From Streptomyces sp. UW30 (GTDB lineage: Bacteria > Actinomycetota > Actinomycetes > Streptomycetales > Streptomycetaceae), in contig NZ_RDBN01000049.1 of NCBI RefSeq assembly GCF_008042075.1, positions 32,277-96,276 of the forward strand: DNA of 64,000 bases, given 5' to 3'. Each line of letters opens with the position of its first letter. The stretch's first letter is position 1. A model generated the notes under the pieces. The model was not told where the DNA came from and ran no database searches. It saw nothing but the letters and a program-made list of their open reading frames with translations. This document shows, piece after piece, positions 23,440 to 40,465 of the stretch. A program made the position numbers and the translations under genes.

Positions 23440-24642
23440 TCATACCTCGGCCGGGATCCGGGGCTCGCTCATCGCAGGCCTTGTGCGCAGCAGCCAACTG
23501 GTGACTCCACTCACCAGCAGCCCTGCGGCCGCCAGCACGGCGCCTCCCGCCGGGACCAGGAGCACGCTGTGCCCGCGTGCCAGGATGGCGCCCCCGAGCC
23601 AGCTGCCGAGCGCGATTCCGACGCAGAAGGCCGAATTGTTGACGGTGAGTGCCATCGCGGCCGACGTGGGGCCTGCGGAGGCGACGATCTGAGAGTTGAG
23701 CGCCGGGATGGTGGCGAAGTACGCGGCACCGAGAACGCAGAACAGGACGGCCACCGCCCAGGCGTTGTCGACGAGCAGGACGAGCAGGAGCAGGGCGGCC
23801 GCGGCGGTGCCCAGGGTCGTGAGTGCCGCGGCGGTCAGATGACGGTCTGCCGCCCGGGCGCCGAGCAGGTTGCCCGCGATACCGCCCAAACCGTAGAGCC
23901 AGAGAAGGACGGTGACGGTGGAGGACTCGAATCCGGCGACGTGCGTCAGGTAGGGAGACGCGTACGTGTACAGGGCGAACACACCACCGGTGCCCAGCAC
24001 GATGGCCGACGCGACAAGGATCATGGGGACCGGAATGGTGAAGCCGCGGCGGCTGTCCATGGCCTTGGGGTGGGCGCCGAGGTCCTCGGCCGGTGTCGGC
24101 TCGGGGACGTTGTGGCGCATGAGCAGCAGCGTCGACAGCAGACTGAGTACGGCCAACGCCCAAAACGTGGCACGCCAGCCCCAGTTGTCGCCGATCAGCG
24201 TTCCCGCCGGCACGCCGACGACAGTCGCGAGGCCGATGCCGAGAGTGACCTTGGCTCCTGACGCGGCCCGCCGGTGAGGCGGCGCCATGTCACGCGCGGA
24301 CGCGACAAAGACGGCGATGAGGGTGGAGTGGGCCAGAGCGCTCACGATCCGGCCCGCGACCAGCCACCCGAAACCCGGGGCGAGTGCGGCGATGACATTG
24401 CCGAGGATGAACACGCCCATCATGCCGGGCAGCAGGACGGCCCTGGGCAACCGGACGGTGAGGGCCGTCAGGCACGGGCCGGCGATCACCACGACCATCG
24501 CGTACACGCTGATCAGCATGCCGACGGCACTCAGGGATACGCCGACGTGGCCGGCGATGTTGGGAAGGATTCCGGCGATGACGCTTTCCGCGGTGCCGAC
24601 ACAGAAGGTGCAGAGCATCATCGCGAGGACGGGCAAGGGCAT
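23440..24642 (-). CDS. MFS transporter, DHA1 drug/sugar efflux type
   Basis: A 400-residue protein with twelve hydrophobic segments. The motif region GRIVSALAHSTLIAVFVASA and the second-half repeat are typical of AraJ/CmlR-like 12-helix exporters. GAGGAGCATCACC precedes the ATG. A drug or sugar-like product is probably exported. It could serve the adjacent cyclitol cluster, but that is inference from position only. Confidence 0.88.
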   Translation of the reverse strand: MPLPVLAMMLCTFCVGTAESVIAGILPNIAGHVGVSLSAVGMLISVYAMVVVIAGPCLTALTVRLPRAVLLPGMMGVFILGNVIAALAPGFGWLVAGRIVSALAHSTLIAVFVASARDMAPPHRRAASGAKVTLGIGLATVVGVPAGTLIGDNWGWRATFWALAVLSLLSTLLLMRHNVPEPTPAEDLGAHPKAMDSRRGFTIPVPMILVASAIVLGTGGVFALYTYASPYLTHVAGFESSTVTVLLWLYGLGGIAGNLLGARAADRHLTAAALTTLGTAAAALLLLVLLVDNAWAVAVLFCVLGAAYFATIPALNSQIVASAGPTSAAMALTVNNSAFCVGIALGSWLGGAILARGHSVLLVPAGGAVLAAAGLLVSGVTSWLLRTRPAMSEPRIPAEV

Positions 24643-24752
24643 GGTGATGCTCCTCAGAGGTGAGCCGCGGGACGCGCCGGCGCCGCGACGCGGGTTCGTG
24701 TCGCAGCGCCGGAGCGCGTGCCCACAGCCCGAATGGCTTCTGGCCGGGGCGC

Positions 24753-24788
24753 GTGCCCATGGCCCGGAGGGTCTCTGGCCATGGGCAC
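24753..24788. terminator. Hairpin terminator after the acyltransferase gene
   Basis: GTGCCCATGGCC (24753-24764) and GGCCATGGGCAC (24777-24788) form a perfect 12-bp stem just downstream of the acyltransferase stop. Confidence 0.75.
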
Positions 24789-24800
24789 ACGGCGAGGGGG

Positions 24801-26030
24801 TCAGGAAACGTCGGCGGTGACGGCCTTCTCGCTGTCCTCCCGGATCGGGGTCTTCGGCTCGGCGGGCAGGGCGGCGGCGCCCTTCGCCTCCCGGTCCCGG
24901 GCACGGGCCCGCGCTCGGCGCGACCAGGCGCGCATCGCCGGCCGCTCGACTCCCACGTACAGCAGCCAGGCCAGCAGCAGGCTCGCCGCGGCGACGAGCG
25001 CGGCGACCCCGACCGCCTCGACGGCGGAGTCGGCCTCCCGGAAACCAAGGCGTTCCTGTGTGAAGGACAGCAGCGTCTGATGTACCAGGTAGAAGGCGAA
25101 GGACACTTCACCGAGCCACACCCACACGCGGCCGCCGAGCGCTGTCCCCACGCCCTGTGCGTCCCGCGCCGCGGTCGCCGCGATGAGCAGGGCGAACGGG
25201 ATGACGACGACCGCGTTCAGGGAGAACAGGAAAGGCACCTTCAGGCTCACCGCGTAGCCGATCACGCTGAGGGCCAGGGCCGGCAGGACACCCAGCTTGA
25301 TCCACTTGCCGGAGAGCACGATCCGGGCCATCAGGATGCCGAGCGCGAAGTCGAGGACCCGGGTGGGCGGGAGGATGTAGACGAACCACATCTGGTTGAT
25401 CGAGTGGCCGTACAGCGGGGAGTTGGCGTGGTTCGGCCCGAACTCGACGCCTGCGGGGACGAGTTGGGCGATCAGCGGAAGGACCACGATCGTGGCGGCC
25501 ACACCGGTGGCCCACCACCACAGTCGACGGGCTTCGATCCGGCACGCCTTCCGGTGAAGTACCGGGAACAGCAGGTAGAAGACCAGTTCGCAGGAGAGCG
25601 ACCAGCTGGGGTTGTTGATGCTGAAGAACACGTCGTCGCGCGGTATCCACGCCTGGAGCAGGAAGAAGTTGGGCACGGCCCGGTCCAGGGTCGCGGAAGC
25701 CGACGCGTACAGGACGAGGGCGAGCACGAAGGTGACGACGTGGTTGGGGTAGATCTTCGCGAGCCGGCGGCCCCAGAAGGCGGGCGCGTTGTCCTTGTCC
25801 CTGGCCGACCAGGTCAGGACGAAGCCGCTGAGGATGAAGAAGAAGGTGACGCCCGCCCAGCCGCCGTTCTTCAGCGCGGCGGCGAACGGACCGTGCTCGC
25901 CTTCGGGGGCCGAATAGGCGTCGAGCAGTGACAGATGGAAGAGGAACACGAGGAAGGCGGCGAGGAACCGCATCCCGGTGAGGGACGAGAGCCGGGCAGC
26001 CGGCTCGGGCGTGGAACGGGCATGGGACAC
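24801..26030 (-). CDS. Acyltransferase 3 family membrane protein
   Basis: A 409-residue protein with about ten transmembrane helices. The family signature is RFLAAFLVFLFHLSLLD (catalytic His) followed by FFFILSGFVLTWS. These enzymes O-acylate sugars, macrolides or cell-surface glycans using cytoplasmic acyl donors. A GTG at 26030 with AGGTGG upstream is preferred to the GTG at 26039. It lies 54 bases downstream of the FAD oxidase on the same strand, so the two may be co-transcribed and act on one product. Confidence 0.88.
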   Translation of the reverse strand: MSHARSTPEPAARLSSLTGMRFLAAFLVFLFHLSLLDAYSAPEGEHGPFAAALKNGGWAGVTFFFILSGFVLTWSARDKDNAPAFWGRRLAKIYPNHVVTFVLALVLYASASATLDRAVPNFFLLQAWIPRDDVFFSINNPSWSLSCELVFYLLFPVLHRKACRIEARRLWWWATGVAATIVVLPLIAQLVPAGVEFGPNHANSPLYGHSINQMWFVYILPPTRVLDFALGILMARIVLSGKWIKLGVLPALALSVIGYAVSLKVPFLFSLNAVVVIPFALLIAATAARDAQGVGTALGGRVWVWLGEVSFAFYLVHQTLLSFTQERLGFREADSAVEAVGVAALVAAASLLLAWLLYVGVERPAMRAWSRRARARARDREAKGAAALPAEPKTPIREDSEKAVTADVS

Positions 26031-26084
26031 GAGGACCACCTGGATACGTGAGGAGACGGCGGGCGGCGTGGTGCCGGGCCGGGT

Positions 26085-27704
26085 CTAGGCAGGACGGATC
26101 GACTGGGCGTGCCGGAAGAAGCCGGTGGGATCCCAGGCGGCCTTGACCTTCTGGAGCCGCCGGTAGCCGTTCTTGTAGTAGAGGTCGTGCCAGGGGACGC
26201 CGGAGGTGTTCCAGCGGGGATCACCGAGGTCCACGTCGGCGTAGTTGACGAAGCATCCGTCGTTGATGTCGTTCGGCACCGGCACACCGCCGGTCGAGGC
26301 GAACATGTCGCGGTAGCACTCGCGGACCCAGCCGATGTTGGCCGCGTCGTCGGCCGCGTCGTTCCAGAGGGAGACGACCTGGTACTTCAGTACGGAGTCA
26401 CGCTGGGGCACCGCGGTGGCGTGGGCGCCGACCTTGTTCACCGCGCCTCCATAGGACGCGATCATCAGCAGAGCGCCGGGGTTGGCGAAGTCGTCACGCG
26501 TCAGATGCCGGTAGGCGGCCGCGATCTGCGCGTCCGTGTAGTTGCGTTTGGCGTAGACCGACTTGCCCTTGAACCTGACGGTGGGGTCGGGGCCGGTGAA
26601 GCCGGGCCACTGGGTCGCGTGCAGCCACGGCATACGCCGGTACTGACGTACCTGCGGCTTCACCCCCACACCGGCCGACACCGCGTCGATGTAGCCCTGC
26701 AGCATGCGCTCGGCGCCTGGAGCGCCGGCATCGACCAGTGAGTCGAGCACCACCGCCCCGGCCGACTTGTGGAAGGGCTTGAGCTGGCTGAACAGTGCGG
26801 TGTACGGGGAGTCGGGGGCGCTGTTGCGGGCATGCCAGTCGCCGTGGTTCCACATCAGCCGGGTGAAGCGGCTCTGGTTCAGGTCCTGCCAGGGCCAGGC
26901 GACCTCGCTCAGCCACACCTCACGGGGCGGGGCCGGTAGCTGATCGGCCGGTTCGGTGCCGACGGCGTCGGGCGAGCGCAGCCAGTAGCGGGTCACCACA
27001 CCGAAGTTGCCGCCGCCACCGCCGGTGTGCGCCCACCACAGTTCCCGGTTGGGGTCATCGGCCTCACGGGTGGCGGTGACCACGCGTGCCTTCTTGTCCG
27101 CTCCGACCACGACGATCTCGATGCCGTACAGATGGTCGACCGCGAGCCCGTCCCGTCGGCTCATCGAGCCGTAGCCGCCGCCCTGGATGTGTCCGCCGGC
27201 CGCGACGCTCGGGCAGTTGCCGGCCGGGAGGTAGACGCCCCAGCCCTTGTAGAGGCGCTCGTAGACACGGCCCAGGGGCACGCCGGGCTGTACGGCGAAT
27301 GCGCGGCGCTGTGCGTCGTACGAGACATCGGCCATCTGCGACAGGTCCAGGACGACGGCGATGTCCTCGTGGGTGGTGAAGTCCTCGTAGCAGTGGCCGC
27401 CGCTGCGTACGGCCAGCCGGCGTCCGGAGTCCACCGCGTCCTGGACGGCTCGCACGACCTCTTCGGTGGTGGTGACGAGGCGGATCTGTTCCGGGCTGCC
27501 GACCCAGCGCTGGTTGGTGCCGCGGCGCAGGTCGGCATAGCGGCGGTCCGCCGGGCCCACCAGGACCGGTTCGGCGGGCGCGGCCGCGGGTGCCTGCCGG
27601 AGTTCGGCCGCTCCTGCGGTGCCTTGTCCGGCCGTGCCGACCGCGAGGGCGCCGCCCGCGGCGGCCGTACCGGAGAGGAATATGCGGCGTTTCATGGTCT
27701 TCAT
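26085..27704 (-). CDS. TAT-exported FAD-linked oxidase (berberine bridge enzyme type)
   Basis: A 539-residue precursor. MKRRIFLSGTAAAGG is a twin-arginine signal. The FAD-binding PCMH fold follows: VRSGGHCYEDF carries the His that is often covalently linked to FAD, and VAAGGHIQGGGYGSMSRRDG lies opposite. The C-terminal BBE box is NYADVDLG..WHDLYYKNGYRRL. Members oxidise alcohols, sugars or amines with O2 outside the membrane. In the cyclitol cluster it is a candidate for a late ring oxidation. Upstream co-directional genes are the transaldolase-like and VOC genes. Confidence 0.88.
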   Translation of the reverse strand: MKTMKRRIFLSGTAAAGGALAVGTAGQGTAGAAELRQAPAAAPAEPVLVGPADRRYADLRRGTNQRWVGSPEQIRLVTTTEEVVRAVQDAVDSGRRLAVRSGGHCYEDFTTHEDIAVVLDLSQMADVSYDAQRRAFAVQPGVPLGRVYERLYKGWGVYLPAGNCPSVAAGGHIQGGGYGSMSRRDGLAVDHLYGIEIVVVGADKKARVVTATREADDPNRELWWAHTGGGGGNFGVVTRYWLRSPDAVGTEPADQLPAPPREVWLSEVAWPWQDLNQSRFTRLMWNHGDWHARNSAPDSPYTALFSQLKPFHKSAGAVVLDSLVDAGAPGAERMLQGYIDAVSAGVGVKPQVRQYRRMPWLHATQWPGFTGPDPTVRFKGKSVYAKRNYTDAQIAAAYRHLTRDDFANPGALLMIASYGGAVNKVGAHATAVPQRDSVLKYQVVSLWNDAADDAANIGWVRECYRDMFASTGGVPVPNDINDGCFVNYADVDLGDPRWNTSGVPWHDLYYKNGYRRLQKVKAAWDPTGFFRHAQSIRPA

Positions 27705-27851
27705 GGGGTGAGTCCTTGTGATCGTGAGGGGGCGCGCCCGAAGCGCCGGGTTCGGGGCAGCCGAACGCGCCGGGATGCGGCGAGGGCGTAGCGGGCACCG
27801 CGGGACGGCAATGGAGGCGGTCGAATGAACCGTGAGCGACGGAGAAACGCG

Positions 27852-28625
27852 TCAGCCGACGGTGGCGTCGAGGCGTACGCCGAACCAGGCGATGGTGGCG
27901 ACCACGCGCCGTGCCTCGGCGGCATCGAGTGCGGTCGGGCCCGTGACGAGACCGCGTTCGTCGAACTCCCGCAGGGCAGCGGGTGACAGGGCCAGGGCCG
28001 TGCCGGGGAACAGGCACTTCTCGGCGTAGTCGACACTCCGGTCCGCGGGGACCGAGGGGCCGCCGGTGGACCACAGGAGATACGGGGCCCGGGCCCCGCC
28101 GGCCAACAGGCGTGCCCAGCGGTCGGTTGCGAGATCGCGCTGCAGGGCGGCGTACATCAGATGGGCCCCGGCGAGCCCGGCGCGTCCCCGCATCGCCTTG
28201 GCCTCCCAGCTGCCGACCAGATCGAGGCGTGCGTTCACCGCGGCGTCGACGCCCGGGAGCGAGTACTCGATCGCCATGGGGTGCGCCGGCCGCGCAGCGC
28301 CCTCGGCGACCGCTGTCTCCAGCGCGGTCAGCATCGTGTCCATGGCCCGTCGGTAGCCGGTCACGGAATGCACGGGGCCGACTGTGACGGCGTTACGCCT
28401 GTCGGCCATGGCGGCGACGATCTCCACCGGGTCGGCGCCGAGCCGCACCGCGGGTGCGCCCGGGGCAAGCAGGCCATGGACGTACTCGTCGGGCCTTTTA
28501 CCTGCCTGCGGCACAGGCTCGGACGGTGCGCTGTGGCGGCAGTCGAGCCAGACGGCCACTCCCGCTTCGTCGGCCTTGCGAAGCGCGTCGGCGGGGCGGG
28601 TCGGTAACTGTGTGAGCGTGCTCAA
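27852..28625 (-). CDS. Divergent transaldolase-like protein lacking the Schiff-base lysine
   Basis: A 257-residue protein with a TTG start at 28625 after GGGGGA. It follows actinobacterial transaldolases in AGVAVWLD (residues 21-28), the VGSWEAKAMRGRAGLAGAHL helix (137-156) and YLLWSTGG near 195. It is about 110 residues shorter than usual. The segment around the catalytic lysine (IKIPAT in the family) reads VRLGAD, so Arg61 takes the Lys place, and the early NPTIF motif is missing. Normal transaldol chemistry is therefore doubtful. It follows the VOC gene by 44 bases on the same strand, so they form an operon. A link to sedoheptulose 7-phosphate, the cyclase substrate, is inference. Confidence 0.75.
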   Translation of the reverse strand: MSTLTQLPTRPADALRKADEAGVAVWLDCRHSAPSEPVPQAGKRPDEYVHGLLAPGAPAVRLGADPVEIVAAMADRRNAVTVGPVHSVTGYRRAMDTMLTALETAVAEGAARPAHPMAIEYSLPGVDAAVNARLDLVGSWEAKAMRGRAGLAGAHLMYAALQRDLATDRWARLLAGGARAPYLLWSTGGPSVPADRSVDYAEKCLFPGTALALSPAALREFDERGLVTGPTALDAAEARRVVATIAWFGVRLDATVG

Positions 28626-28669
28626 GAAAGTCCCCCGTGATGTGGTGTGCGTGCCGACGGCCGTCCGCT

Positions 28670-29770
28670 TCAGGGACGGTCGTGCCAGCGCAGATGTCCG
28701 GGTGCGGCACGGCGGGCCGCCGTTTGCGCCTCGTAGGGCAGTGACCCGTCCGGCATGTGGATCAGCTCCATCTGGATGCCGATGGGCGTGCCGAAGTACA
28801 GCCAGCGGTCCCCGGCGATCGGCCCGGCGGTGATCGTTTCCGGTTCCCCCATCAACGTCACGCCGGGCTGCCGGCTCAGGTAGGCGGCGGCCGTGTCCAC
28901 GTCGTCGACGTAGAAGGCGAGATGGTGGCCACCGATGTCGCTGTTGAGGGGCGGGCGCCGGTGGAGGGCGTTCGTTCCGCACTGCGACAGTTCGCAGTTG
29001 GCCGTGGGGCCGGTGCGCAGCACCACCCGTCGGGTCCGCTCGGCCCCGGGCGGCCAGTGGCCGGTGTGGTCCGCCGAGGTCTCGTCGGACGTCTCGACGA
29101 CCTCGGCGCCCAGGACGTGGGTGAAGAACGCCGTCGCCGCGTCCAGATCGGCCACTGTGTATCCGACGGAGTCGACGCCCAGCAAGCCCAGCGGCCCTCG
29201 CCCCTGGGTGGTGTGCGACAGCGGCTCGGGTACGAATCGGCCCGTCGTGCGCGCGCCCTCGCGGGTCTCGGGACGCGCAGGTCCGCACAGGGCGAGCATC
29301 ATGCCCCAGGGGCTGAGGAACCAGCGGCGTTCCTCTTCCGGGCGTCCGTCATGGCCGGTGGGACCGAGGCGGACCACGTTGCTCGCCCGCAGCTGCTCCT
29401 CGGCGGTGTCCAGGTCCGCCACCCGCAGGGTCAGGTGGTGACCCCCCACGTCGTTCGGGCCGGGCAGCGAGGTGACCTGACCGGGTGCCGTGTACTCGAA
29501 GAGTTCCAGATTGCTGTAGGGGCCGAGCCGGACCACGGCGACATGGGCCCGGGCCTGCGGGTGCACGCCCAGTTTGCGTGTCATCCAGTCGCCGGACGGG
29601 TCCTCGACCGGCCCCTCCCGGTAACAGAGTTCACCGCCGAACACCTCGGTGAAGAAGCCGACTGCCTCGTTCAGGTCGGGCACGGTGAACGCGTAGTGGT
29701 CCACCGCACGCGCCGTCGGCAGACCGGCGAGCACCGGTACGGAAGATGACGTCGTCGCAGTACTGAGCAT
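28670..29770 (-). CDS. Double-domain VOC protein, CetB-like 2-epi-5-epi-valiolone epimerase candidate
   Basis: A 366-residue protein made of two vicinal-oxygen-chelate halves. The first has VDHYAFTVPDLNEAVGFF, LELFEYTA and VGGHHLTLRVADLD. The second has GYTVADLDAATAFF, IGGHHLAFYVDDVD and MELIHMP, with His/Glu in metal-ligand places. Dioxygenases and glyoxalases share this fold, but the size and closeness to a sugar phosphate cyclase recall CetB of cetoniacytone biosynthesis, which epimerises 2-epi-5-epi-valiolone. ATG at 29770 after GGGGGACTGC. A probable operator lies 132 bases upstream. Confidence 0.75.
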   Translation of the reverse strand: MLSTATTSSSVPVLAGLPTARAVDHYAFTVPDLNEAVGFFTEVFGGELCYREGPVEDPSGDWMTRKLGVHPQARAHVAVVRLGPYSNLELFEYTAPGQVTSLPGPNDVGGHHLTLRVADLDTAEEQLRASNVVRLGPTGHDGRPEEERRWFLSPWGMMLALCGPARPETREGARTTGRFVPEPLSHTTQGRGPLGLLGVDSVGYTVADLDAATAFFTHVLGAEVVETSDETSADHTGHWPPGAERTRRVVLRTGPTANCELSQCGTNALHRRPPLNSDIGGHHLAFYVDDVDTAAAYLSRQPGVTLMGEPETITAGPIAGDRWLYFGTPIGIQMELIHMPDGSLPYEAQTAARRAAPGHLRWHDRP

Positions 29771-30217
29771 GCAGTCCCCCTTCGAAAGTGCGCCGGGTGC
29801 CCGTGGCCCCGGCGCGGGCACGACGAGTGCCCTCGGCGGGCCGCCCGCTGCCCACAGCTGGGGCAGGGCGTCCGACCGATGGCGACAGTAGAGCACCATC
29901 ATTGCGCGCGCAAGGAAAAAGCCGACAGGACCGATGCGCCAGCACACCTACACATAGCTGCTGACCTGCATATTCAAGCTTCACACCGAGTGATCCAAAG
30001 CCATCCCGCCATCAAGGAACCGCCAAGTTCATTGTGTGGGCATGGAAAAAATCAGGTTTACCGCGGGTTTTCTCGAGAAGCTGCAACTCGTATCCTGTCC
30101 GCGAGGTTCGGCCGCCCCGGTTGCCACGGGAAAGCCCCGACCTGCCTCCTCCCCTCACACCCTCCGCTCCCGGAGCAGACGCCGATGCCCTTCGGGCACA
30201 TGAAGAAGGCAGCAGTC
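29771..30217. other. Divergent regulatory region of the cyclitol cluster
   Basis: About 450 bases without a gene, richer in A/T than its surroundings around 29880-30080. It holds the TTGCGCGCGCAA site (29902-29913) and a perfect 10-bp palindrome TTCTCGAGAA (30070-30079) upstream of the MarR gene. Confidence 0.6.
29902..29913. promoter_or_regulatory. Cluster operator copy 1 (TTGCGCGCGCAA)
   Basis: A perfect 12-bp palindrome with flanks TCA on the left and GG on the right. TCATTGCGC(G/A)CGCAAG is shared, in opposite orientation, with the site upstream of the cyclase at 30843. It is placed to control the VOC/transaldolase-like operon; the MarR gene beside it is the likely binder. Confidence 0.6.
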
Positions 30218-30661
30218 ATGCGATCGCGCAAAGAAGACAGCATCGAGCTCTGGAGCCAGTTGTCGGTACTGGTCGCGGAAGTCGGGACCCAGCTGGACAG
30301 AAGGTTGTCCGAGGACTTCGGGCTGGGGCTTACGGACTTTCTGTCCCTTCAGGCCATGAGCACGGGCGACCCGGCCGGCATACGCATGAACGAACTGGCC
30401 CAGCAGCTCGGGCTCAACCAGTCGTCGGCCACCCGGGCCGTGGCACGCCTGGAGAAGCGCGAGCTCGCGGAACGCGTCGCCCACGAGACGGACCGCCGAG
30501 GCGTGGTCGTACGCATCACCGACGCCGGTCGCGCGATCGTCGCGGACATAGGCAGGCTCTTCCGCGAGGAGGTGGGCCTGGCCCTCGAAGTGGCGGCTCT
30601 GGACAGCAGGACCAGTTCGGTGGTGGCCCGGTTGCGCTACGCCCCGACACTCGACCACTGA
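30218..30661 (+). CDS. MarR-family regulator of the cyclitol cluster
   Basis: A 147-residue winged-helix protein: IRMNELAQQLGLNQSSATR is the HTH and RVAHETDRRGVVVRIT the wing. ATGs at 30185, 30200 and 30218 are possible; 30218 has AAGAAGG at the best distance. It sits between the divergent VOC operon and the cyclase operon, both of which carry the same palindrome, so it is the obvious candidate repressor. A terminator follows at once, so it is probably transcribed alone. Confidence 0.85.
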   Translation: MRSRKEDSIELWSQLSVLVAEVGTQLDRRLSEDFGLGLTDFLSLQAMSTGDPAGIRMNELAQQLGLNQSSATRAVARLEKRELAERVAHETDRRGVVVRITDAGRAIVADIGRLFREEVGLALEVAALDSRTSSVVARLRYAPTLDH

Positions 30662-30677
30662 CCCCCTCCCCCCGAAG

Positions 30678-30706
30678 CCTCTGCCGTGACCGGCAGGGGC
30701 TTTCGC
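30678..30706 (+). terminator. Terminator after the MarR gene
   Basis: CCTCTGCCG (30678-30686) pairs with CGGCAGGGG (30691-30699), 9 bp with one G-U, and is followed by CTTTCG. Confidence 0.7.
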
Positions 30707-30733
30707 GTGCCGTGACCCTCCTCGGAGCGCAAC

Positions 30734-30770
30734 CCGCAAGGAACGCGACTCCTTGCGGAAGCATGCTTCC
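30734..30770. promoter_or_regulatory. Two overlapping palindromes upstream of the cyclase gene
   Basis: CCGCAAGGA (30734-30742) and TCCTTGCGG (30750-30758) form a perfect 9-bp inverted repeat. It overlaps GGAAGCATGCTTCC (30757-30770), a perfect 14-bp palindrome. Either could be a regulator site, and the first could also act as a weak hairpin. Confidence 0.5.
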
Positions 30771-30842
30771 TGACCCAGCCTCCCCTGGGCGAACCAGCTG
30801 GCGCTTTCCGTGACTTGAAGCGTCAACAGATCATGATGGTGC

Positions 30843-30854
30843 TTGCGTGCGCAA
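30843..30854. promoter_or_regulatory. Cluster operator copy 2 (TTGCGTGCGCAA)
   Basis: A 12-bp palindrome with one mismatch to the site at 29902 and conserved flanking bases when read on the other strand. It lies about 170 bases before the cyclase ATG, close to a weak TTGAAG/CATGAT promoter-like pair (from 30815). Confidence 0.6.
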
Positions 30855-31021
30855 TGAACCTTGTGGCAGGGTCATCCGCAACGGGGGGACCGCGCCACGG
30901 ACAGTGGCCAGGTCCAGCAGCCGAAGGCTTCGGCCTTCGCCATGCGACATTCATTCGTGCTGCCCCGAATCGATCCACGACGGACAAGAACCGAAACTCT
31001 TCGTCGAAGGACAGACGCCTG

Positions 31022-32281
31022 ATGCAGCAAGACACTCAGACCACCCGCGGCAACGACGGCCTCTTCGCGGTGGGCAGCCCGGTGACGCACTGGTCGGTGC
31101 AGACCAGCAATCCGGTTCAGTACGAGATCCGGGCCAGCGAGAACCTCCTGGATCCGCAGAACCCCACGATTCTGGAAGACGCCGTGGGCACGACCGGCCT
31201 GCGCCGCTTCGTCGTCACCGACTCCGTGGTCGATGCGCTCTACGGCGAGCGCATACGCACGTACTTCGCACACCACGCGGTCGAGCACCGGATCCTGGTC
31301 CTGGACGACGGCGAGACGCACAAGTCGGTGGACGCGGTGCTGCGCGTCACCGAGGCCCTGGACGACTTCGGCATCGACCGCAGGCGGGAGCCGGTGATCG
31401 CCATCGGCGGCGGGGTCCTCATGGACACCGTCGGCTTCGCGGCCAGCCTCTACCGTCGCTCCACTCCGTTCATCCGGATTCCCACCACGCTGATCGGCCT
31501 CGTCGACGCGGGCGTCGGCGCGAAGACCGGCGTCAACCACAACGGGCACAAGAACCGGCTCGGCACGTACTTCCCGGCCGACCGCACCCTGCTGGACCGC
31601 ACGTTCCTCACCACCCTCGGCGACCGGCACATCAGCAACGGCCTCGCCGAGATACTCAAGATCGCCCTGATCAAGGACGCCCGGCTCTTCGACCTGCTGG
31701 AGCAGCACGGCACCGATCTCCTGCGCGACAAGCTGCAGAGCCCGGCGTCCGGCATCGGGCTCACCCCGGCGGACGCCCCGGTCGACCAGCGGCTCGCGGC
31801 CCACGGACTGCACCTCGACCCCGCGACCGAGGTGGTCGAGCGCGCCATCCACGGAATGCTGGAGGAGCTCCAGCCGAACCTGTGGGAGAAGGTGCTGGAA
31901 CGGGTCGTCGACTACGGCCACACCTTCAGCCCGACCATCGAGATGCGCGCGCTGCCCGCCCTGCTGCACGGCGAGGCCGTGACGGTGGACATGGCGCTGA
32001 CCACGGTGATGGCCGAGCGCCGCGGCCTGGTCAGCGCCTACCAGCGCGAGCGCATCCTGGGCGTGATGGACCGGCTCGGACTGCCGGCCTGGCACCCGCT
32101 GTGCACGTCGGAGGTGCTGGTGCCCGCGCTGCGTGACACCGTCCGCCACCGCGACGGAAAGCAGCGGCTGCCGCTGCCCGTCGGGATCGGCAGCGCGGTC
32201 TTCGTCAACGACGTCACCGAGGACGAGCTCGCCGCGGCAGCGGAGCAGCTCGCCAAGCTGTCGGTAGGAGTGGCCCGTTGA
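31022..32281 (+). CDS. Sugar phosphate cyclase, 2-epi-5-epi-valiolone synthase type
   Basis: A 419-residue member of the dehydroquinate-synthase superfamily. IAIGGGVLMDTVGFAASLYR (NAD site), IRIPTTLIGLVDAGVGAKTG, HNGHKNRLGTYFPA, EILKIALIKD and the metal-ligand region VDYGHTFSP, LLHGEAVTVDMA follow the pattern of cyclases acting on sedoheptulose 7-phosphate (EEVS, as in AcbC, ValA or CetA) rather than DHQ synthase. I cannot separate EEVS from 2-epi-valiolone or desmethyl-4-deoxygadusol synthases by eye; the CetB-like neighbour favours EEVS. ATG at 31022 after GAAGGAC. It overlaps the bicupin gene by 4 bases, so it heads an operon. Confidence 0.88.
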   Translation: MQQDTQTTRGNDGLFAVGSPVTHWSVQTSNPVQYEIRASENLLDPQNPTILEDAVGTTGLRRFVVTDSVVDALYGERIRTYFAHHAVEHRILVLDDGETHKSVDAVLRVTEALDDFGIDRRREPVIAIGGGVLMDTVGFAASLYRRSTPFIRIPTTLIGLVDAGVGAKTGVNHNGHKNRLGTYFPADRTLLDRTFLTTLGDRHISNGLAEILKIALIKDARLFDLLEQHGTDLLRDKLQSPASGIGLTPADAPVDQRLAAHGLHLDPATEVVERAIHGMLEELQPNLWEKVLERVVDYGHTFSPTIEMRALPALLHGEAVTVDMALTTVMAERRGLVSAYQRERILGVMDRLGLPAWHPLCTSEVLVPALRDTVRHRDGKQRLPLPVGIGSAVFVNDVTEDELAAAAEQLAKLSVGVAR

Positions 32282-33078
32282 GCCGCTCGACCGGTGTGGC
32301 CCGCCCGCAGCCGCCCCGCGCTCCCGCGGGCACTGCGTGGGACGCGCCCGCCTTCTCATCGGTCGGGACGGTGACCGATGCGGCGACGGTCTACGGCGTG
32401 CACGGTGCGGCCGGGCGCACCCGCTGGAAGTGCTTCGCCGGCCGACGCCAGCTCGCGTCTCCCACGGAGGCGGTCGAATGGGCGTCCATCCCTCCCGGTG
32501 GGGTCAGCGGTGAGCACCGGCACACCAGGACCGAGGAGATCTATCTCATCCTGCGCGGCCACGGGGAGTTCCTGTTCAACGGCCGGCCCCACCCGGTCGC
32601 CCCGGGCTCACTCGCCCTGACGGCCGTGGGCAATGTGCACGGGCTGCGCAACTCCTCCGACACCGACCTCGACTGGTGGGTGATCGAAACCCTCGCGCCG
32701 GGCACAGGCGCCGTTCTGTCCGGAGCCGATCACACACCGGAGGTTCCCGCCATGGGCGAGATCGCCATCCACGACCTCTTCGAGGAACGCACGGTATCGA
32801 CCGCGGGTGTCTTCAACGGCCCGCTGAGGAGCGTCGACGTCACCGACCTCGACGCCGGCGAACAGTGCGTACTGGGCCGCCCGGACGCCGAGTTGGCGGT
32901 GTTCGTGCACAGCGGCCGGGGCCGGGCCACGGCCGCGGACAGCACGTCGGCCGAGCTGGCGGCGGACACCTGCGTCACCCTCGGCGCCGGTACGACGACC
33001 ACGGTCGAGGCGGACAGCGCGCTGCGGCTGCTGATCGTGACGCTGGCCGTGCCACAGCACGTGTCGGAGGCGAAGTGA
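32278..33078 (+). CDS. Bicupin protein
   Basis: A 266-residue protein with two cupin halves. The first has the full motif: GGVSGEHRHTRTEEIYLILRG, then NVHGLRNSS, with His/His/Glu/His metal ligands. The second half (about 165-260) keeps the fold but few ligands (LDAGEQCVLGRPDAELAVFV). TTG start at 32278 overlaps the cyclase stop as TTGA, with GTAGGAG upstream, so translation is coupled. A role as isomerase, dehydratase or dioxygenase on the cyclitol is possible but unproved. Confidence 0.8.
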   Translation: MSRSTGVARPQPPRAPAGTAWDAPAFSSVGTVTDAATVYGVHGAAGRTRWKCFAGRRQLASPTEAVEWASIPPGGVSGEHRHTRTEEIYLILRGHGEFLFNGRPHPVAPGSLALTAVGNVHGLRNSSDTDLDWWVIETLAPGTGAVLSGADHTPEVPAMGEIAIHDLFEERTVSTAGVFNGPLRSVDVTDLDAGEQCVLGRPDAELAVFVHSGRGRATAADSTSAELAADTCVTLGAGTTTTVEADSALRLLIVTLAVPQHVSEAK

Positions 33079-33470
33079 TCATCTCGGCGCTGGACGCGAC
33101 GGTCCGGGCGGCGACAGGCACCACTCCCGCCGCCACCACGGCCGACTGGCAGTGCCTGGTCCGCAGGGGCATGCTGCACAGCGAGTGCGAGGCGGTCGAA
33201 CACTGGACGCTGCCCCCGGGCGCCACCCTGGAGTTGACCTCCGGCCACGGTGTGGAGGAGGCACTGCTGGTCCTCGACGGGGAACTCGTCGTCGCCGCGG
33301 CCACCGGCGACCGGCCTGTACGAGCCGGTCAGATCGCACTGGTGCCGCACGGGGCCGAAGGACGGGTCCGAGCGGGCGACGATCCGGTGCGCCTCATCAC
33401 CGTCCGCACTCTGGCCGCCGCCGTGTCGGACCGGTTGCCGCCCCGCATCCCCGAACTGCTCACGCCCTGA
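33075..33470 (+). CDS. Small single-domain cupin
   Basis: A 131-residue protein reading LVRRGMLHSECEAVEHWTLP, GATLELTSGHGVEEALLVLDG, IALVPHGAEGRV. The cupin pattern is present, but the usual HxH of motif 1 is reduced to GHGVEE. GTG start at 33075 overlaps the bicupin stop (GTGA) after GGAGGCGAA. With the cyclase and bicupin it forms a tightly coupled three-gene unit. Confidence 0.75.
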   Translation: MIISALDATVRAATGTTPAATTADWQCLVRRGMLHSECEAVEHWTLPPGATLELTSGHGVEEALLVLDGELVVAAATGDRPVRAGQIALVPHGAEGRVRAGDDPVRLITVRTLAAAVSDRLPPRIPELLTP

Positions 33471-33506
33471 CCGCGGCCTCGAAGCCCACCTACAGAAGGG
33501 AGCACC

Positions 33507-34427
33507 ATGCGTGCTGTCGTCCTCTCCGCGTACGGCGGTCCGGAAAAGCTCACCGTGTCGCACCTTCCGGAGCCCGCCGCACCGGATGCGTCCGCGGTCC
33601 TGATCCGCGTCTCGGCGGCCGGGGTCAACCCGGTCGACCTCCAGACGCGGGCCGGACGGCACGCGGGACACAGCGCCCTTCAACCGCCCATGGTCCTCGG
33701 CTGGGACGTGGCGGGGACCGTCACGGCCGTGGGCGATGACGTCACCGCTTTCCACCCGGGCGACCGTGTCATCGCGATGTCGGCACAAATGGCGACGGGA
33801 CGGGGGACGTACGCCGAGATGGTGGCCCTGCCCGCGGACATCGCCGCGCCCGCCCCCGCCTCCGTCCCGCTCACCACGGCCGCGGGACTGCCGCTCGCCG
33901 GACTCACCGCGCAGCAGGCACTCGACGCCCTCGGCCTGCCGGAGGGTGCCACGCTGCTGGTCACCGGCGCCGTCGGCTCGGTCGGCGGGCTTGCGGTGCA
34001 GCTGGCGCGGCTGCGGGGATGGCGGGTCGTGGCGCAGGTCCGCCACGCGGCCGACGCCGAGGAGGCGCTGGCGCTGGGCGCGACGGAGGTGAGGGTCGGG
34101 GCGACCGAGCCACCCACCGCCGGCGAACCCGACGTCGACGGGCTGCTGGAAACCGCGGGTCTGCCGCAGGCGATCGGTGCCGTACGAGACGGCGGGCGCG
34201 TCGTCTCCATCGTGCCGACCAGGCGTCCGGTCGCGGAACGCGGCATCACGGTGACGGTGAACCACGTCGAACAGGACGGCGCGGGTCTCGCCGGGCTCAC
34301 CGAAGCCGTCGACCGCGGCGCCCTTCGGCTGCGGTCCGCCAGGGAGTACGGCTTCGACGACGCGGCCGAGGCTCATCGGTCGCTGGCCGAGGGCGGCGTG
34401 CGGGGCAAGCTCCTGCTCGTGCCGTGA
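33507..34427 (+). CDS. MDR-type NAD(P)H:quinone oxidoreductase / alcohol dehydrogenase
   Basis: A 306-residue zinc-free medium-chain reductase. It has GVNPVDLQTRAG, LGWDVAGTV, AGLPLAGLTAQQALDALGLP and the nucleotide loop VTGAVGSVGGLAVQLARLRG. No catalytic Cys/His zinc set is present, so quinone or enone reduction is more likely than alcohol oxidation. GAAGGGAGCACC precedes ATG 33507. It follows the cupins by 36 bases on the same strand and probably belongs to the operon. Confidence 0.88.
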   Translation: MRAVVLSAYGGPEKLTVSHLPEPAAPDASAVLIRVSAAGVNPVDLQTRAGRHAGHSALQPPMVLGWDVAGTVTAVGDDVTAFHPGDRVIAMSAQMATGRGTYAEMVALPADIAAPAPASVPLTTAAGLPLAGLTAQQALDALGLPEGATLLVTGAVGSVGGLAVQLARLRGWRVVAQVRHAADAEEALALGATEVRVGATEPPTAGEPDVDGLLETAGLPQAIGAVRDGGRVVSIVPTRRPVAERGITVTVNHVEQDGAGLAGLTEAVDRGALRLRSAREYGFDDAAEAHRSLAEGGVRGKLLLVP

Positions 34428-34490
34428 CCCGCCCGCGCCGAACCGTCACCGAGCGCCGGACCCGTGCCAGAACGAACGAGGAAGCAGCCT

Positions 34491-34985
34491 GTGGCCGAGC
34501 CGTACGGCGGCGAAAGTCCCGAAACCGTCACCAACGCAGGCTCCCGGCTCTGGGAAAGAGTCCTTCCCCTGTTCACCACCATCGGGTACCAACTGGACCG
34601 CACGCTCCAGCGCAGTCATGACGTCAGCCTGGCCTCGCTCATGGCACTCGGTGCGGTGGCCGGTGGGCATCCGGAGCCGATGACGGTCGGGGCCGTGGCC
34701 CGGCGGCTGGGCGTGACGGCTTCCTCGGCGAGCCGAATGCTCGCACAGCTGGAGCGCTCGGGCTGGGTGAGCCGCGGCTCCTGGTCCGGCGACCGGCGGG
34801 TCAGCCGTATCCGGATGACCGAAGCGGGCCACGCCTTCTGGGAACAGGCCAGTCCCACGCTCGATCGCGAATTGGACGCGGCCTTCAACGTGCTGGCCTT
34901 CGACGAGAGGTACGCCCACGTCGTGGCCCGGCTGTGCCGGGGCACCGAAGCCGTTCCACGCGAAGAGGAGCCGGCCTCTTCGTGA
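34491..34985 (+). CDS. Second MarR-family regulator at the end of the cyclitol operon
   Basis: A 164-residue protein with MTVGAVARRLGVTASSASR as HTH and WVSRGSWSGDRRVSRIRMT as wing. A GTG at 34491 with GAGGAAG upstream is preferred; a GTG at 34464 is possible. It is co-directional with the MDR gene. It differs in sequence from the MarR at 30218, so it probably senses something else. A strong hairpin follows. Confidence 0.82.
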   Translation: MAEPYGGESPETVTNAGSRLWERVLPLFTTIGYQLDRTLQRSHDVSLASLMALGAVAGGHPEPMTVGAVARRLGVTASSASRMLAQLERSGWVSRGSWSGDRRVSRIRMTEAGHAFWEQASPTLDRELDAAFNVLAFDERYAHVVARLCRGTEAVPREEEPASS

Positions 34986-35037
34986 GAACCCGCAGGGCGC
35001 CATGCGTGAACCCTCGCCGGGGATCCAACGGCCCGTA

Positions 35038-35077
35038 CAGAAGGGGGCGTGAGCAGATGTGCTCACGCCCCCTTCTG
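35038..35077. terminator. Strong bidirectional terminator
   Basis: CAGAAGGGGGCGTGAGCA (35038-35055) pairs perfectly with its complement at 35060-35077. It lies between the convergent MarR and TetR genes and covers the TetR stop codon. Confidence 0.9.
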
Positions 35078-35674
35078 CACGGGCCACACCGACATGGCGA
35101 GCTCGGCCACCCGCTCCAGTTCCCCCGCGCTCGCCCCGTCCCGCGCCTGTTGGGACATGCCCTGGACCACCGCCGCGAAGTAGACGGCCAGGGCGCGCGG
35201 TTCGACACCTTCGGGCAGCGCCCCGACCTTCTCGGCGTCGGCCAGTCGCTCCTCGAAGTCGCGGACGTTCGCCACCCTGCGTTCCCGCAGGTCCCGCTCG
35301 ACATCGGCCGTCTGCGCCGAGTAGTTGATCGCCGCCGTGATGACCAGACAGCCTGCCGGGTGGTCGGGATCGGTGTACGACGTCGCCGCCTCGCGCAGCA
35401 TTCTGGCGAACCCCGCACGGGCGTCGCTCTCCTCCTCCAGCGCCCTGCCCATGAAGGCGCCGAACGTTCCGCCGTAGCGGTCGACGACCTCGGTGAACAG
35501 GGTGCGCTTGTCGCCGAAGGCCGCGTACAGGCTGGGCGGAGAGATCCCCATGCCCCGGGTCAGATCGGCGATGGACGTGCCTTCGTAGCCGTGCTCCCAG
35601 AACAGCCGAGTGGCCTGCACGAGCGCCGCCTCGCGGTCGAAACTTCGCGGTCGTCCCCGCCTCGTCGTCGTCAT
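35063..35674 (-). CDS. TetR-family repressor
   Basis: A 203-residue protein. The N-terminal HTH reads TSIADLTRGMGISPPSLYAAFGDK, followed by a ligand domain typical of AcrR-like repressors (PAGCLVITAAIN). It is divergent from an SDR gene, with repeated AGC(G/C)ATCGCTAC sites between, so it most likely represses the SDR and itself. Confidence 0.9.
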   Translation of the reverse strand: MTTTRRGRPRSFDREAALVQATRLFWEHGYEGTSIADLTRGMGISPPSLYAAFGDKRTLFTEVVDRYGGTFGAFMGRALEEESDARAGFARMLREAATSYTDPDHPAGCLVITAAINYSAQTADVERDLRERRVANVRDFEERLADAEKVGALPEGVEPRALAVYFAAVVQGMSQQARDGASAGELERVAELAMSVWPVQKGA

Positions 35675-35688
35675 GGCATGAATTTTAC

Positions 35689-35736
35689 AGCGATCGCTAC
35701 GTATTGCGTGTAAGCTTTTTCCATAGCCATCGCTAC
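35689..35736. promoter_or_regulatory. TetR operator pair
   Basis: AGCGATCGCTAC (35689-35700, containing a perfect 10-bp palindrome) and AGCCATCGCTAC (35725-35736) are repeated 36 bases apart between the two divergent start codons. Confidence 0.6.
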
Positions 35737-35749
35737 AGATTGGAAGGTC

Positions 35750-36517
35750 ATGCGTTCACTCACGGGCAAGACGGCTCTGGTGACCGGCGGCAGCCGCGGC
35801 ATCGGGCGGGCCACCGCCGAACGGCTCGGCAGGGAGGGCGCCCTCGTGGCCGTGCACTACGGACGCAACACCGCTGCCGCCGAAGAGGCGGTGGGGGCGA
35901 TCCGGGCCGCGGGCGGCACGGGGTTCGCCGTACGGGCCGAGCTGGGCGCGGGTGGTGACGTGGAGGCCCTGTGGGCCGAGTTCGACCGCCAGGTCCTCGA
36001 GCACGGCGACCACGCCGGTCTCGACATCCTGGTGAACAACGCCGGCATCACGCCCCGCGGCCACATCGAGGAGACCACACCCGAGGCCTTCGACGAGGTG
36101 TTCGCCGTCAACGTGCGGGCCCCGTTCTTTCTGGTGCAGCAGGGGCTCAAGCGGCTGCGGGACGGCGGCCGCATCATCAACCTCTCGTCGGGGGCGACCC
36201 GCATCGCGCTGACCGACATCATCGCGTACGGCATGACCAAGGGCGCCATCGACACCTTCAGCCTCACGCTCGCCAAGGCCCTCGGAAACCGCGGCATCAC
36301 CGTCAACTCGGTCGCGCCCGGCATCATCGACACCGACATGAACGCGTCCTGGCTCCGGGGCAACGAAGCCGCCGAACAGTCCGCCGGGGAGCTCTCGGCA
36401 CTCGGCCGCGTGGGCCGCCCCGACGATGTGGCCGACGTCGTGGCCTTCCTGGCCTCGGACGACGCCCGTTGGGTGACGGGGCAGGTCATCGACGCCACCG
36501 GGGGCTCGCAGCTCTGA
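35750..36517 (+). CDS. Short-chain dehydrogenase/reductase
   Basis: A 255-residue classical SDR: TGGSRGIG cofactor loop, NNAG, NLSSGATR with YGMTK, VNSVAPGIIDTDM, and a DATGG end. It resembles 3-oxoacyl-ACP reductase/glucose dehydrogenase-like SDRs; the substrate is unknown. GGAAGG precedes ATG 35750. Under the divergent TetR. It could add a redox step to the cyclitol cluster, but a perfect terminator separates it from that operon. Confidence 0.9.
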   Translation: MRSLTGKTALVTGGSRGIGRATAERLGREGALVAVHYGRNTAAAEEAVGAIRAAGGTGFAVRAELGAGGDVEALWAEFDRQVLEHGDHAGLDILVNNAGITPRGHIEETTPEAFDEVFAVNVRAPFFLVQQGLKRLRDGGRIINLSSGATRIALTDIIAYGMTKGAIDTFSLTLAKALGNRGITVNSVAPGIIDTDMNASWLRGNEAAEQSAGELSALGRVGRPDDVADVVAFLASDDARWVTGQVIDATGGSQL

Positions 36518-36617
36518 TCTGATCTGAACCACGGCTCGCGCCATGGGCCTGCGCCACGCAAGGGTGTCAACGGGGACACCGCATCATCACGCACGACACT
36601 CTGCAGCTGGAGACCCC

Positions 36618-36980
36618 ATGCATGTCGTCATCGCCTGGTGGGACGGAACTCGCTCCGCCGGAACCCCACACGCGGACAGCAAGGAATCCGCAGGCCGACC
36701 GGAAACCTCCGGCATCGGCCCCGATTCCTCCTCCGCCGGCGAGTTCCCAGGCCTGAGAACGAGCCGCTGGCTCACCGATCCGACCGCCGACCGGCAGGGC
36801 CTGGCCCTGCTGTGGGACAGCGCGGCCTCCGCCGCACGGTCCCTGCCGGCGCTCGCGGCGAAGACGTTCGGCTGCGCGCCGTCCGATCGCTGGGCCTTCG
36901 AGCTGGACGAAGCACTCCAGCCGAAGCCGGGCGGTCCCCTCGGGCTCCCGCAGGAGCTCAGCCTCCTGCTCCACGCCTGA
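36618..36980 (+). CDS. Small hypothetical protein, possible ABM-type fold
   Basis: A 120-residue protein starting MHVVIAWWDGTRS after CTGGAGACCCC. DRQGLALLWDSAASAARSLPA resembles the strand/helix part of small dimeric alpha-beta barrel (YdhR/ABM-like) proteins, but the match is weak. The middle is Ser/Gly-rich. A terminator follows at 36993. Confidence 0.5.
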   Translation: MHVVIAWWDGTRSAGTPHADSKESAGRPETSGIGPDSSSAGEFPGLRTSRWLTDPTADRQGLALLWDSAASAARSLPALAAKTFGCAPSDRWAFELDEALQPKPGGPLGLPQELSLLLHA

Positions 36981-37097: not shown

Positions 37098-37195
37098 CGT
37101 CACGCGCGTGGGGGGAGCGGCCGGGGGGCCGGGGGAATTGCCAGGGCGTTGCCGTGTGTCCCGCCATGCCTTCTTCTTGCCTTTCAGGAGGAACG

Positions 37196-40100: not shown

Positions 40101-40465
40101 GCACGCTGTCGGCGCGCGTGAAGCTGTACGACAACTGGAAGACGTACAAGAAGGTCGTGGGTGCCGGTGACCTGAACGGCGACGGCATCGGCGACCTCCT
40201 GGCCCAGGACACGTCGAACAACCTGTACCGGTACGACGGCACCGGCAGGGGCACATTCAAGGCCCGCGTGAAGGTGTTCTCGAACTGGGGCGCTTCCTAC
40301 AACGCGGTCGTCGGAGTGGGAGACATCACCGGCGACGGCAAGGCGGACCTCGTCTCGCGCGACACCAGCGGCAACCTGTACCGCAACAGTGGTGACGGTA
40401 AGGGGTCGTTCGGCGGTCGTACGAGGATCGCGACGGGCTGGCAGGGGTACAAGGCCGTCGTATAG
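37196..40465 (+). CDS. Secreted beta-propeller protein with FlgD-like Ig and FG-GAP/VCBS repeats (paralogue 2)
   Basis: GTG start at 37196 after AGGAGGAAC; 1089-residue precursor. The signal (AVLATALTLSLPLAGVPSSAAAA) is followed by a propeller region of about 800 residues, the FlgD-like Ig unit (WDGKDSAGRLVANGAYTWTL) and FG-GAP repeats (GDLSGDRCNDVLV, GDVSGDGRPDLIA, GDLNGDGIGDLLA, GDITGDGKADLVS). The last 200 residues are nearly those of the gene at 2555-5617; the propeller halves have diverged more. Probably a cell-surface or secreted calcium-binding adhesin-like protein. Confidence 0.87.
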   Translation: MARLGRPGHRHRPALGSRSARTAAVLATALTLSLPLAGVPSSAAAAPQSAAAAGEFVLPAAPRAVPRATQILNAGTSGFLWAQEGDDRLLWTDYATGTTTALEQRLDVPVQYDIDSGYFREAASFQPGYYGDGSDTVALYSEEDSQVTLLQGAGTSGGTTVVPVPEYHAYRGTFGNTVLTSTSGFNGNPNAYQLWRVEDGGGAGQTPVTGLPDGAGNIVVEDGDARSVILRYDTDDDSWGHWGIVDLATGEFSALPDRINPEDGWEVTGFRLGADSVLRLRSGRGKADLYDRDDLSASPRTFDTGALTYQAAYGIVGDKLLGLEPVAPGDNRYRGQPLWALTSDGTDTDLTKVMDPAAHGIVQAPDGSVLVAGAEQYVERGDLDWGMYRIARTADGSVTRSRLAAVQPMPAQINGLSLGNGILTTADNSTLYEPGTIIGAYRSTWLTTSGTPGVTKTTVDGLVSGRDGDCTAGATRCIRMFADGTGHHGRRDATESGLTMLRANGATTWGPTLDTGDDSPQLKDLSGRYAVVDGASSGDQYIGEFPDGSAGKVMQERDRVAAAVWGNTLWSGAATGGKVTATRLPSGTAVESFTTRNGCTPSDLQAVGRWVYWTCEDAWGDVQGSGVYDRVAKRTATAPAGRVLLGDGYLVERVGGIQSGSGLILIDLHNGLPASGNHTDLPSRKLAGWTDLGRDNLGVGTTWTVDRFGGGVAYADREQRVHLLPTGVPASALSAIDSTVTSGAASWSGTWWLSKPAASWKATVRHKASDVSVRTVSGSAARGLLKAAWDGKDSAGRLVANGAYTWTLTAQPADGQGAALTLSGTTTVTAGAAAPRDYAGNDGVGDVLTLNSSGTLTIQRGTGTGTLGSKVSGAGWPTTSRFVPFGDLSGDRCNDVLVRLSSGALRAYRPGCGKAATPSTPYTSLGTSGWGQYDVLTSPGDVSGDGRPDLIARNASTGTVYLYKGTGTGTLSARVKLYDNWKTYKKVVGAGDLNGDGIGDLLAQDTSNNLYRYDGTGRGTFKARVKVFSNWGASYNAVVGVGDITGDGKADLVSRDTSGNLYRNSGDGKGSFGGRTRIATGWQGYKAVV

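Follow-up and report, generated by a model that had tools for sequence, protein, structure and literature searches.

What does a Streptomyces strain make with a cyclase of the C7-cyclitol type when neither an aminotransferase nor a glycosyltransferase lies among the genes around it? The question is raised by a 64 kb stretch of the 9.9 Mb genome of Streptomyces sp. UW30 (hereafter the window, in whose positions all coordinates are given), where a sequence-only reading had placed a cryptic carbasugar cluster at 24801-34985. All the genes on which it was built were found there: profile matches recovered a 2-epi-5-epi-valiolone synthase (EEVS)-type cyclase, a double VOC protein, a transaldolase-like protein, two cupins, an MDR reductase, a FAD oxidase with a predicted export signal, a membrane acyltransferase beside an exporter, and two MarR regulators. 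The genes almost certainly encode a C7-cyclitol pathway, and its product is very probably free of amino groups. The gabosines and COTC are non-amino, oxidised C7 cyclitol enones, of which COTC is acylated, and from the gene content we infer product, substrates and enzyme order alike: most likely a nitrogen-free, oxidised, O-acylated C7 cyclitol resembling these compounds. The reading that we favor, with some confidence, is a phosphate-free route of the gabosine/COTC kind whose product would be exported and finished outside the cell.

The cyclase is 54% identical to ValA, 40% identical to a DDGS and 32% identical to a dehydroquinate synthase (DHQS), and in a 91-row tree it fell within the EEVS set containing ValA, with DDGS and DHQS outside (a quick tree with long outgroup branches). 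In the alignment, its D302 and H381 agree with ValA, and the corresponding residues of DDGS are Ala and Thr; we take these two positions to separate EEVS from DDGS, and work by Kean from 2014 is said to give D281 and H360 of ValA as native diagnostic residues. Together, the best structural match, the identities and the tree position ruled out assignment as a DHQS, an aminoDHQS or a DDGS, and the cyclase type first proposed was borne out. Homology thus supports a predicted closure of sedoheptulose 7-phosphate to 2-epi-5-epi-valiolone by this enzyme, which, with a dN/dS of 0.12–0.17, is among the most constrained in the block.

For comparison, EEVS loci were collected by searching one genome of each species with six aligned cyclases as the query; the 80 loci used below (cited by L numbers) were chosen by likeness to the window cyclase, so that frequencies among them are not a census. 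One of them (L063:8817-9983) carries, in addition to its EEVS gene, a second, very divergent DHQS-like protein of about 390 aa that matches DHQS_C only. Equivalents, mostly adjoining EEVS, occur in L014, L018, L042, L049, L054, L078, L080, L085, L087 and L099, and this protein is possibly a new sugar-phosphate-cyclase relative. EEVS-like genes with 45–47% identity were also seen on the plant-associated plasmids NZ_MK318987 (Rhizobium rhizogenes) and NZ_AP023270 (Agrobacterium vitis); the matches of the plasmid search were all to more distant EEVS genes.

Nine further loci (L023-L030 and L036, from Streptomyces and one other actinobacterium) share the gene order of the window, which starts at the MFS pump and ends with the SDR gene and an open reading frame (ORF) of 119–145 aa. 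Protein identity across these orthologous clusters is about 50–93% for most genes, and the flanking genes beyond the conserved block differ from one to the next; the exceptions to synteny are L026, without the transaldolase-like gene, and L025, without the MDR gene. Since this order is kept in nine other genomes, a chance grouping is excluded, and synteny sets a predicted cluster extent of about 23440-36980. The interval first proposed therefore contained real genes and cut the cluster at both ends, by about 1.4 kb on either side, losing the MFS pump on the left and TetR, SDR and a small ORF on the right. Inside, a minus-strand group (VOC, pseudo-transaldolase, BBE oxidase, acyltransferase and MFS pump) and a plus-strand group (EEVS, bicupin, small cupin, MDR and marR2) point outward around the central marR1, with the divergent TetR/SDR pair beyond marR2 and overlaps of 4 bp each at the EEVS/bicupin and bicupin/small cupin junctions. 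No aminotransferase, glycosyltransferase, or sugar or cyclitol kinase was found within the conserved block in any of the ten clusters, the window included; within limits now defined by synteny, the claim that the first two are missing held.

The combination of cyclase and VOC protein with a bicupin and a small cupin had been thought unfamiliar. It proved to be common: VOC protein, bicupin and small cupin occur together in 55/80 EEVS loci, the commonest context there, in Streptomyces, Kitasatospora, Lentzea, Amycolatopsis, Arthrobacter, Cellulomonas and other genera, and outside the actinobacteria in two Archangium (Myxococcota) and one Roseibium (Pseudomonadota). This recurrence led us to reject the idea of the cluster as a lone curiosity. 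A ROK kinase (our family f11, called from a sequence motif rather than a profile search) lies near one of the 55 core loci versus 17 of the 25 remaining loci (Fisher p 1.7e-10, relatedness ignored). Because the core goes with a near absence of ROK kinase, we read it as a phosphate-free branch: a kinase-free branch of C7-cyclitol biosynthesis is well supported and probable, and it looks like one in which EEVS removes the phosphate and the VOC protein and cupins work on the free ring.

The core proteins fit this reading to different degrees. As had been proposed, the VOC protein is CetB-like, with two domains (short forms of 170–220 aa occur in other loci) and predicted metal ligands H13, E77, H271 and E323 kept at 94–100% in 62 homologues; it would likely epimerise 2-epi-5-epi-valiolone. 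The bicupin was found in 15 of 296 Streptomyces genomes, adjoining EEVS in all 15, and its N-terminal domain keeps a 3His-1Glu metal site almost throughout a set of 71 sequences. Its model groups with BacB and AerE, enzymes that move double bonds within six-membered rings, at Z 19–22, where seed globulins, dioxygenases and other unrelated bicupins tie. We tentatively suggest a dehydratase or isomerase turning the ring into an enone, a guess that has chemical precedent. The small cupin is a diverged paralogue of the bicupin N-terminal domain (profile match E 1e-20), otherwise matches generic cupins only, and evolves at one of the block's highest dN/dS values (0.36–0.80). Since its family has no conserved metal-binding His, it is probably no metal enzyme on its own.

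Evidence for finishing outside the cell comes from the oxidase. Its best structural match is TamL (E 1.6e-176), followed by AknOx, a hexose oxidase and CrmK; TamL, AknOx and CrmK, its nearest solved relatives, carry out alcohol oxidations late in biosynthesis. The residues for covalent flavin attachment, H104 and C164, are kept at 97% in 36 homologues, the bicovalent FAD type, and an RR motif stands in the signal-like N-terminus of 35/36 homologues (loose pattern). An SDR of at least 45% identity to that of the window occurs in 22/80 EEVS loci, and all 22 also have the BBE oxidase (p 5e-11, relatedness ignored); loci with both come from Streptomyces, Lentzea, Arthrobacter, Paenarthrobacter, Cellulomonas, Nocardiopsis, Promicromonospora and Roseibium, eight genera in two phyla, and a window-like TetR gene is present in 19/22. 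The sequence-only reading had missed this TetR-SDR pair, although no other gene pair goes so closely with the oxidase predicted to be exported. Because of the signal peptide, the enzyme family and the strict pairing with the SDR, oxidation of an alcohol outside the cell by the BBE enzyme seems likely.

That the SDR is found only where the BBE oxidase occurs suggested reduction inside and oxidation outside. In naphthyridinomycin biosynthesis (NapW/NapU) and in the fungal A26771B system (Berk), a cytosolic SDR reduces the compound and a secreted oxidase reactivates it outside, A26771B also using an acyltransferase (PMC9854587), and NapU is a TAT-exported BBE-like protein (PMC11375781). The window likewise holds an SDR and a predicted secreted oxidase in one cluster, with an acyltransferase as for A26771B; those products, however, are an alkaloid and a macrolide, whereas here a small cyclitol would pass through a cycle that we infer. 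By analogy with NapW/NapU, self-protection by this means is plausible without quite being probable. The oxidase could instead be a plain tailoring or salvage enzyme (alcohol to aldehyde or acid) in a gabosine/COTC-like pathway, the SDR merely a pathway reductase and no self-protection cycle in operation. Such a role would suit CrmK, a close BBE relative that works as a salvage oxidase, and COTC-like compounds are known from Streptomyces; yet the SDR is restricted to oxidase-bearing loci and adjoins a TetR gene of its own, from which a palindrome separates it. This arrangement suggests inducible protection, and we consider the tailoring or salvage version unlikely.

The acyltransferase accompanies the BBE oxidase in 27 of the 35 BBE-bearing EEVS loci, and the oxidation and acyl-transfer genes were found beside the exporter as proposed. 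In L040, L043, L045 and L066, the acyltransferase-BBE pair stands with a ROK-type kinase, without VOC or cupins; judged by gene content, the acylation/oxidation module is one that moves between both kinds of cyclitol cluster.

In the phosphate-free reading, the metal bicupin and small cupin would next form an enone, by removing water or moving a double bond of the ring, and the MDR reductase and TetR-controlled SDR would reduce the reactive carbonyl inside the cell. The membrane acyltransferase would then esterify the compound with an acyl group, the MFS pump would export the product, and outside the oxidase would turn an alcohol back into the reactive ketone or aldehyde.

How does this compare with described systems? 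Cetoniacytone A biosynthesis, in work by Wu from 2009, reportedly involves the EEVS CetA, the VOC-family epimerase CetB, and acylation and oxidation steps, all of which have counterparts here; the cetoniacytone cluster includes aminotransferases, however, and the window has none. That cluster (Actinomyces sp. Lu 9419, BGC0000283) also differs in its acylating enzyme, CetD being a NAT-family N-acetyltransferase (PMC11213898), whereas the window has a membrane Acyl_transf_3 protein. The acarbose, validamycin and salbostatin pathways share the entry enzyme but have a kinase and attached sugars, the cyclitols of acarbose and validamycin being phosphorylated by the ROK kinases AcbM and ValC (PMC9200736), in contrast to the window, with its VOC protein and cupins and without kinase or glycosyltransferase. 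The gabosines and COTC, which appear as Streptomyces carbasugars among the references of PMC7961443, share the predicted product class, a link that is chemical only. In the literature searched, we found no gene cluster for gabosines or COTC, and no described cluster with the gene order of the window, a gene-level comparison with cetoniacytone not being included.

An alternative product is an aminocyclitol of the cetoniacytone/epoxyquinomicin kind with its aminotransferase gene elsewhere, and the core is indeed accompanied by a DegT aminotransferase in eight other loci. The conserved block, however, lacks an aminotransferase in ten Streptomyces clusters, and the DegT family (our f25) is found in 0/23 loci that have core, acyltransferase and BBE oxidase, making this improbable.

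Two other groups of loci carry EEVS with different decoration. L050, L051, L071, L092 and L100 (1-12,500) have EEVS-VOC, two bicupins, several cupins, a GMC oxidase and a DegT aminotransferase, and add a salicylate synthase (TIGR03494, 459 bits in the L050 type), an AMP ligase, an ACP, a KAS III-like protein and a class II DAHP synthase; they are candidate epoxyquinomicin-type clusters. L031, L032 and L055 combine the EEVS core with KAS III, a FabG-like SDR and an enoyl-CoA hydratase (and a P450 in L031/L032), and are candidates for making a short unsaturated, crotonyl-like (COTC-like) cyclitol ester. The sister clusters support a picture of one core with modular decoration.

Candidate operators were found for two of the regulators. 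The palindrome TTGCGNNCGCAA has two exact copies in the window (29902 and 30843), one in each intergenic stretch beside marR1; with one mismatch allowed, its count alone is no higher than chance. Both copies are present in 8/10 clusters, one in L025 and none in L026, the second always 179–183 bp ahead of the EEVS start, against a background of one copy per 1.3 Mb (loci L037-L102). It is a strong candidate for a MarR operator, and MarR1 would control the cluster through the two sites. Between tetR and SDR, AGCGATCGCT was found in 8 of 9 clusters checked, with GTAGCGATCGCTAC at the matching site in Lentzea (L034). MarR, TetR, MFS, QOR-like MDR and SDR proteins would also suit a cluster that detoxifies or breaks down some quinone- or enone-like compound and whose cyclase was recruited to another task. 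The EEVS gene, however, overlaps the bicupin gene and is highly constrained, and we know of no catabolic role for EEVS; we regard this explanation as very improbable.

The transaldolase-like protein was indeed present, as a C-terminal half only. It aligns to that half of NCBIfam transaldolases (the actinobacterial type, TIGR00876) and has lost the N-terminal half, the Schiff-base Lys region, the TNPS motif and the phosphate-site Arg, retaining the segment EAKAM(R)xRAGxAGAHL. The window protein and eight orthologues lack the Lys region altogether, while two ordinary transaldolases elsewhere in the same genome have both Lys and TNPS motifs intact. The decay is graded: L031 keeps the Lys and has lost the N-terminal substrate motif (TNPS), in L032, L046, L048 and L039 Arg replaces the Lys, and in L026 the whole gene is gone. 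By its sequence, the cluster protein is a decayed pseudoenzyme that cannot act as a transaldolase, and a role in supplying sedoheptulose 7-phosphate was rejected because the catalytic region is gone. A search of 296 Streptomyces genomes (E 1e-9) gave mostly canonical transaldolases, the single close match beyond the window's own lying in an EEVS-bearing genome (G155). The version in L031 (12950-14089) scores 248.7 bits against an NCBIfam transaldolase cut-off of 233.75 despite its lost TNPS, so that annotation pipelines will misname such a protein. The truncation, the loss in L026 and the fast evolution of pseudo-transaldolase (dN/dS 0.43–0.60, among the highest in the block) and small cupin could be taken to indicate a silent, decaying remnant, the least credible explanation of all given that every other enzyme gene is intact, keeps its place and evolves under purifying selection (dN/dS 0.10–0.54), with the operators conserved.

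Several points weigh against the phosphate-free, externally finished route that we prefer. The pathway is read from genes, and its product and activities are predictions; genes beyond the block could provide an amino group or a sugar. The bicupin fold match is unspecific, seed globulins and dioxygenases scoring equally in the model comparison. The SDR-BBE linkage statistic takes no account of relatedness, a tree-based test of kinase/VOC exclusion gave three independent pairs and was not significant, and the 80 loci behind the kinase/VOC counts were picked by similarity to the window cyclase.

Feature coordinates are collected in Table 1. At the right edge of the block, the small ORF is conserved only in this position in the ten copies of the cluster, and its dN/dS (0.41–0.81) is among the highest in the block. 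Directly after the cluster, at 37154-40465, lies a large secreted-looking repeat protein (VCBS/FG-GAP-like by eye) that is not co-conserved.

Table 1. Features of the predicted C7-cyclitol cluster, in window positions.
Feature	Position	Strand	Basis
MFS exporter (Cmx/CmrA-like), left edge of block	23440..24642	-	PF07690 E 4e-45; same place in nine orthologous clusters
Membrane acyltransferase (Acyl_transf_3)	24801..26039	-	PF01757 E 1e-28
BBE-type FAD oxidase, predicted TAT-exported	26085..27704	-	FAD_binding_4 + BBE; twin-arginine N-terminus MKTMKRRIFLSG
Truncated pseudo-transaldolase	27852..28625	-	Start TTG 28625 uncertain; no Pfam match
Tandem two-domain VOC protein, CetB-like epimerase candidate	28670..29770	-	Glyoxalase profile, 2 stretches
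Palindrome TTGCGCGCGCAA, candidate MarR operator 1	29902..29913	.	VOC-marR1 intergenic
MarR regulator 1	30218..30661	+	PF12802; 77-93% identity over nine orthologous clusters
Palindrome TTGCGTGCGCAA, candidate MarR operator 2	30843..30854	.	179 bp ahead of EEVS start
EEVS-type cyclase	31022..32281	+	PDB best match ValA 4p53 E 7e-126; tree
Bicupin	32278..33078	+	Cupin_2 E 5e-16; AlphaFold pLDDT 90
Small cupin	33075..33470	+	Cupin_2
QOR-like MDR reductase	33507..34427	+	ADH_N + ADH_zinc_N_2; best NCBIfam match PIG3 quinone reductase, under cut-off
MarR regulator 2	34464..34985	+	PF12802
TetR regulator, divergent from SDR	35063..35674	-	PF00440
Palindrome AGCGATCGCT, candidate TetR operator	35689..35698	.	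Between tetR and SDR
SDR reductase	35750..36517	+	PF13561 E 3e-53
Small ORF, right edge of block	36543..36980	+	No Pfam match; kept in ten Streptomyces clusters

EEVS clusters as a kind and CetB-type VOC proteins are already known. Relative to the literature searched, what is new is a recurring branch with VOC protein, bicupin and cupin in place of a kinase, the pairing of an SDR with a predicted exported oxidase on a cyclitol, the candidate operators, and the stepwise loss of a transaldolase bound to the cluster, although cupins may already figure in the described cetoniacytone cluster. A bolder proposal, which we offer with reserve and consider doubtful, is that actinobacteria recurrently use a second, phosphate-free route from sedoheptulose 7-phosphate to C7 cyclitols, in which a VOC epimerase, a metal bicupin and its metal-free cupin partner replace the kinase-epimerase-dehydrogenase steps known from acarbose-type pathways and, in the subtype of the window, a carbasugar warhead held in reduced form by the TetR-controlled SDR is activated outside by a TAT-exported flavin oxidase.

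The chemistry of non-amino carbasugars such as gabosines and COTC is decades old, and the window cluster and its relatives provide a defined gene set that may account for compounds of this kind. C7-cyclitol biosynthesis would divide, in a way that can be tested, between a route with a kinase and one with VOC protein and cupins, the latter giving so far unexplained cupins a likely role, and the cluster points to a scheme by which a small cyclitol would be activated outside the cell. For waking the cluster and for tests of self-protection, the candidate operators and the SDR-oxidase pair offer handles.

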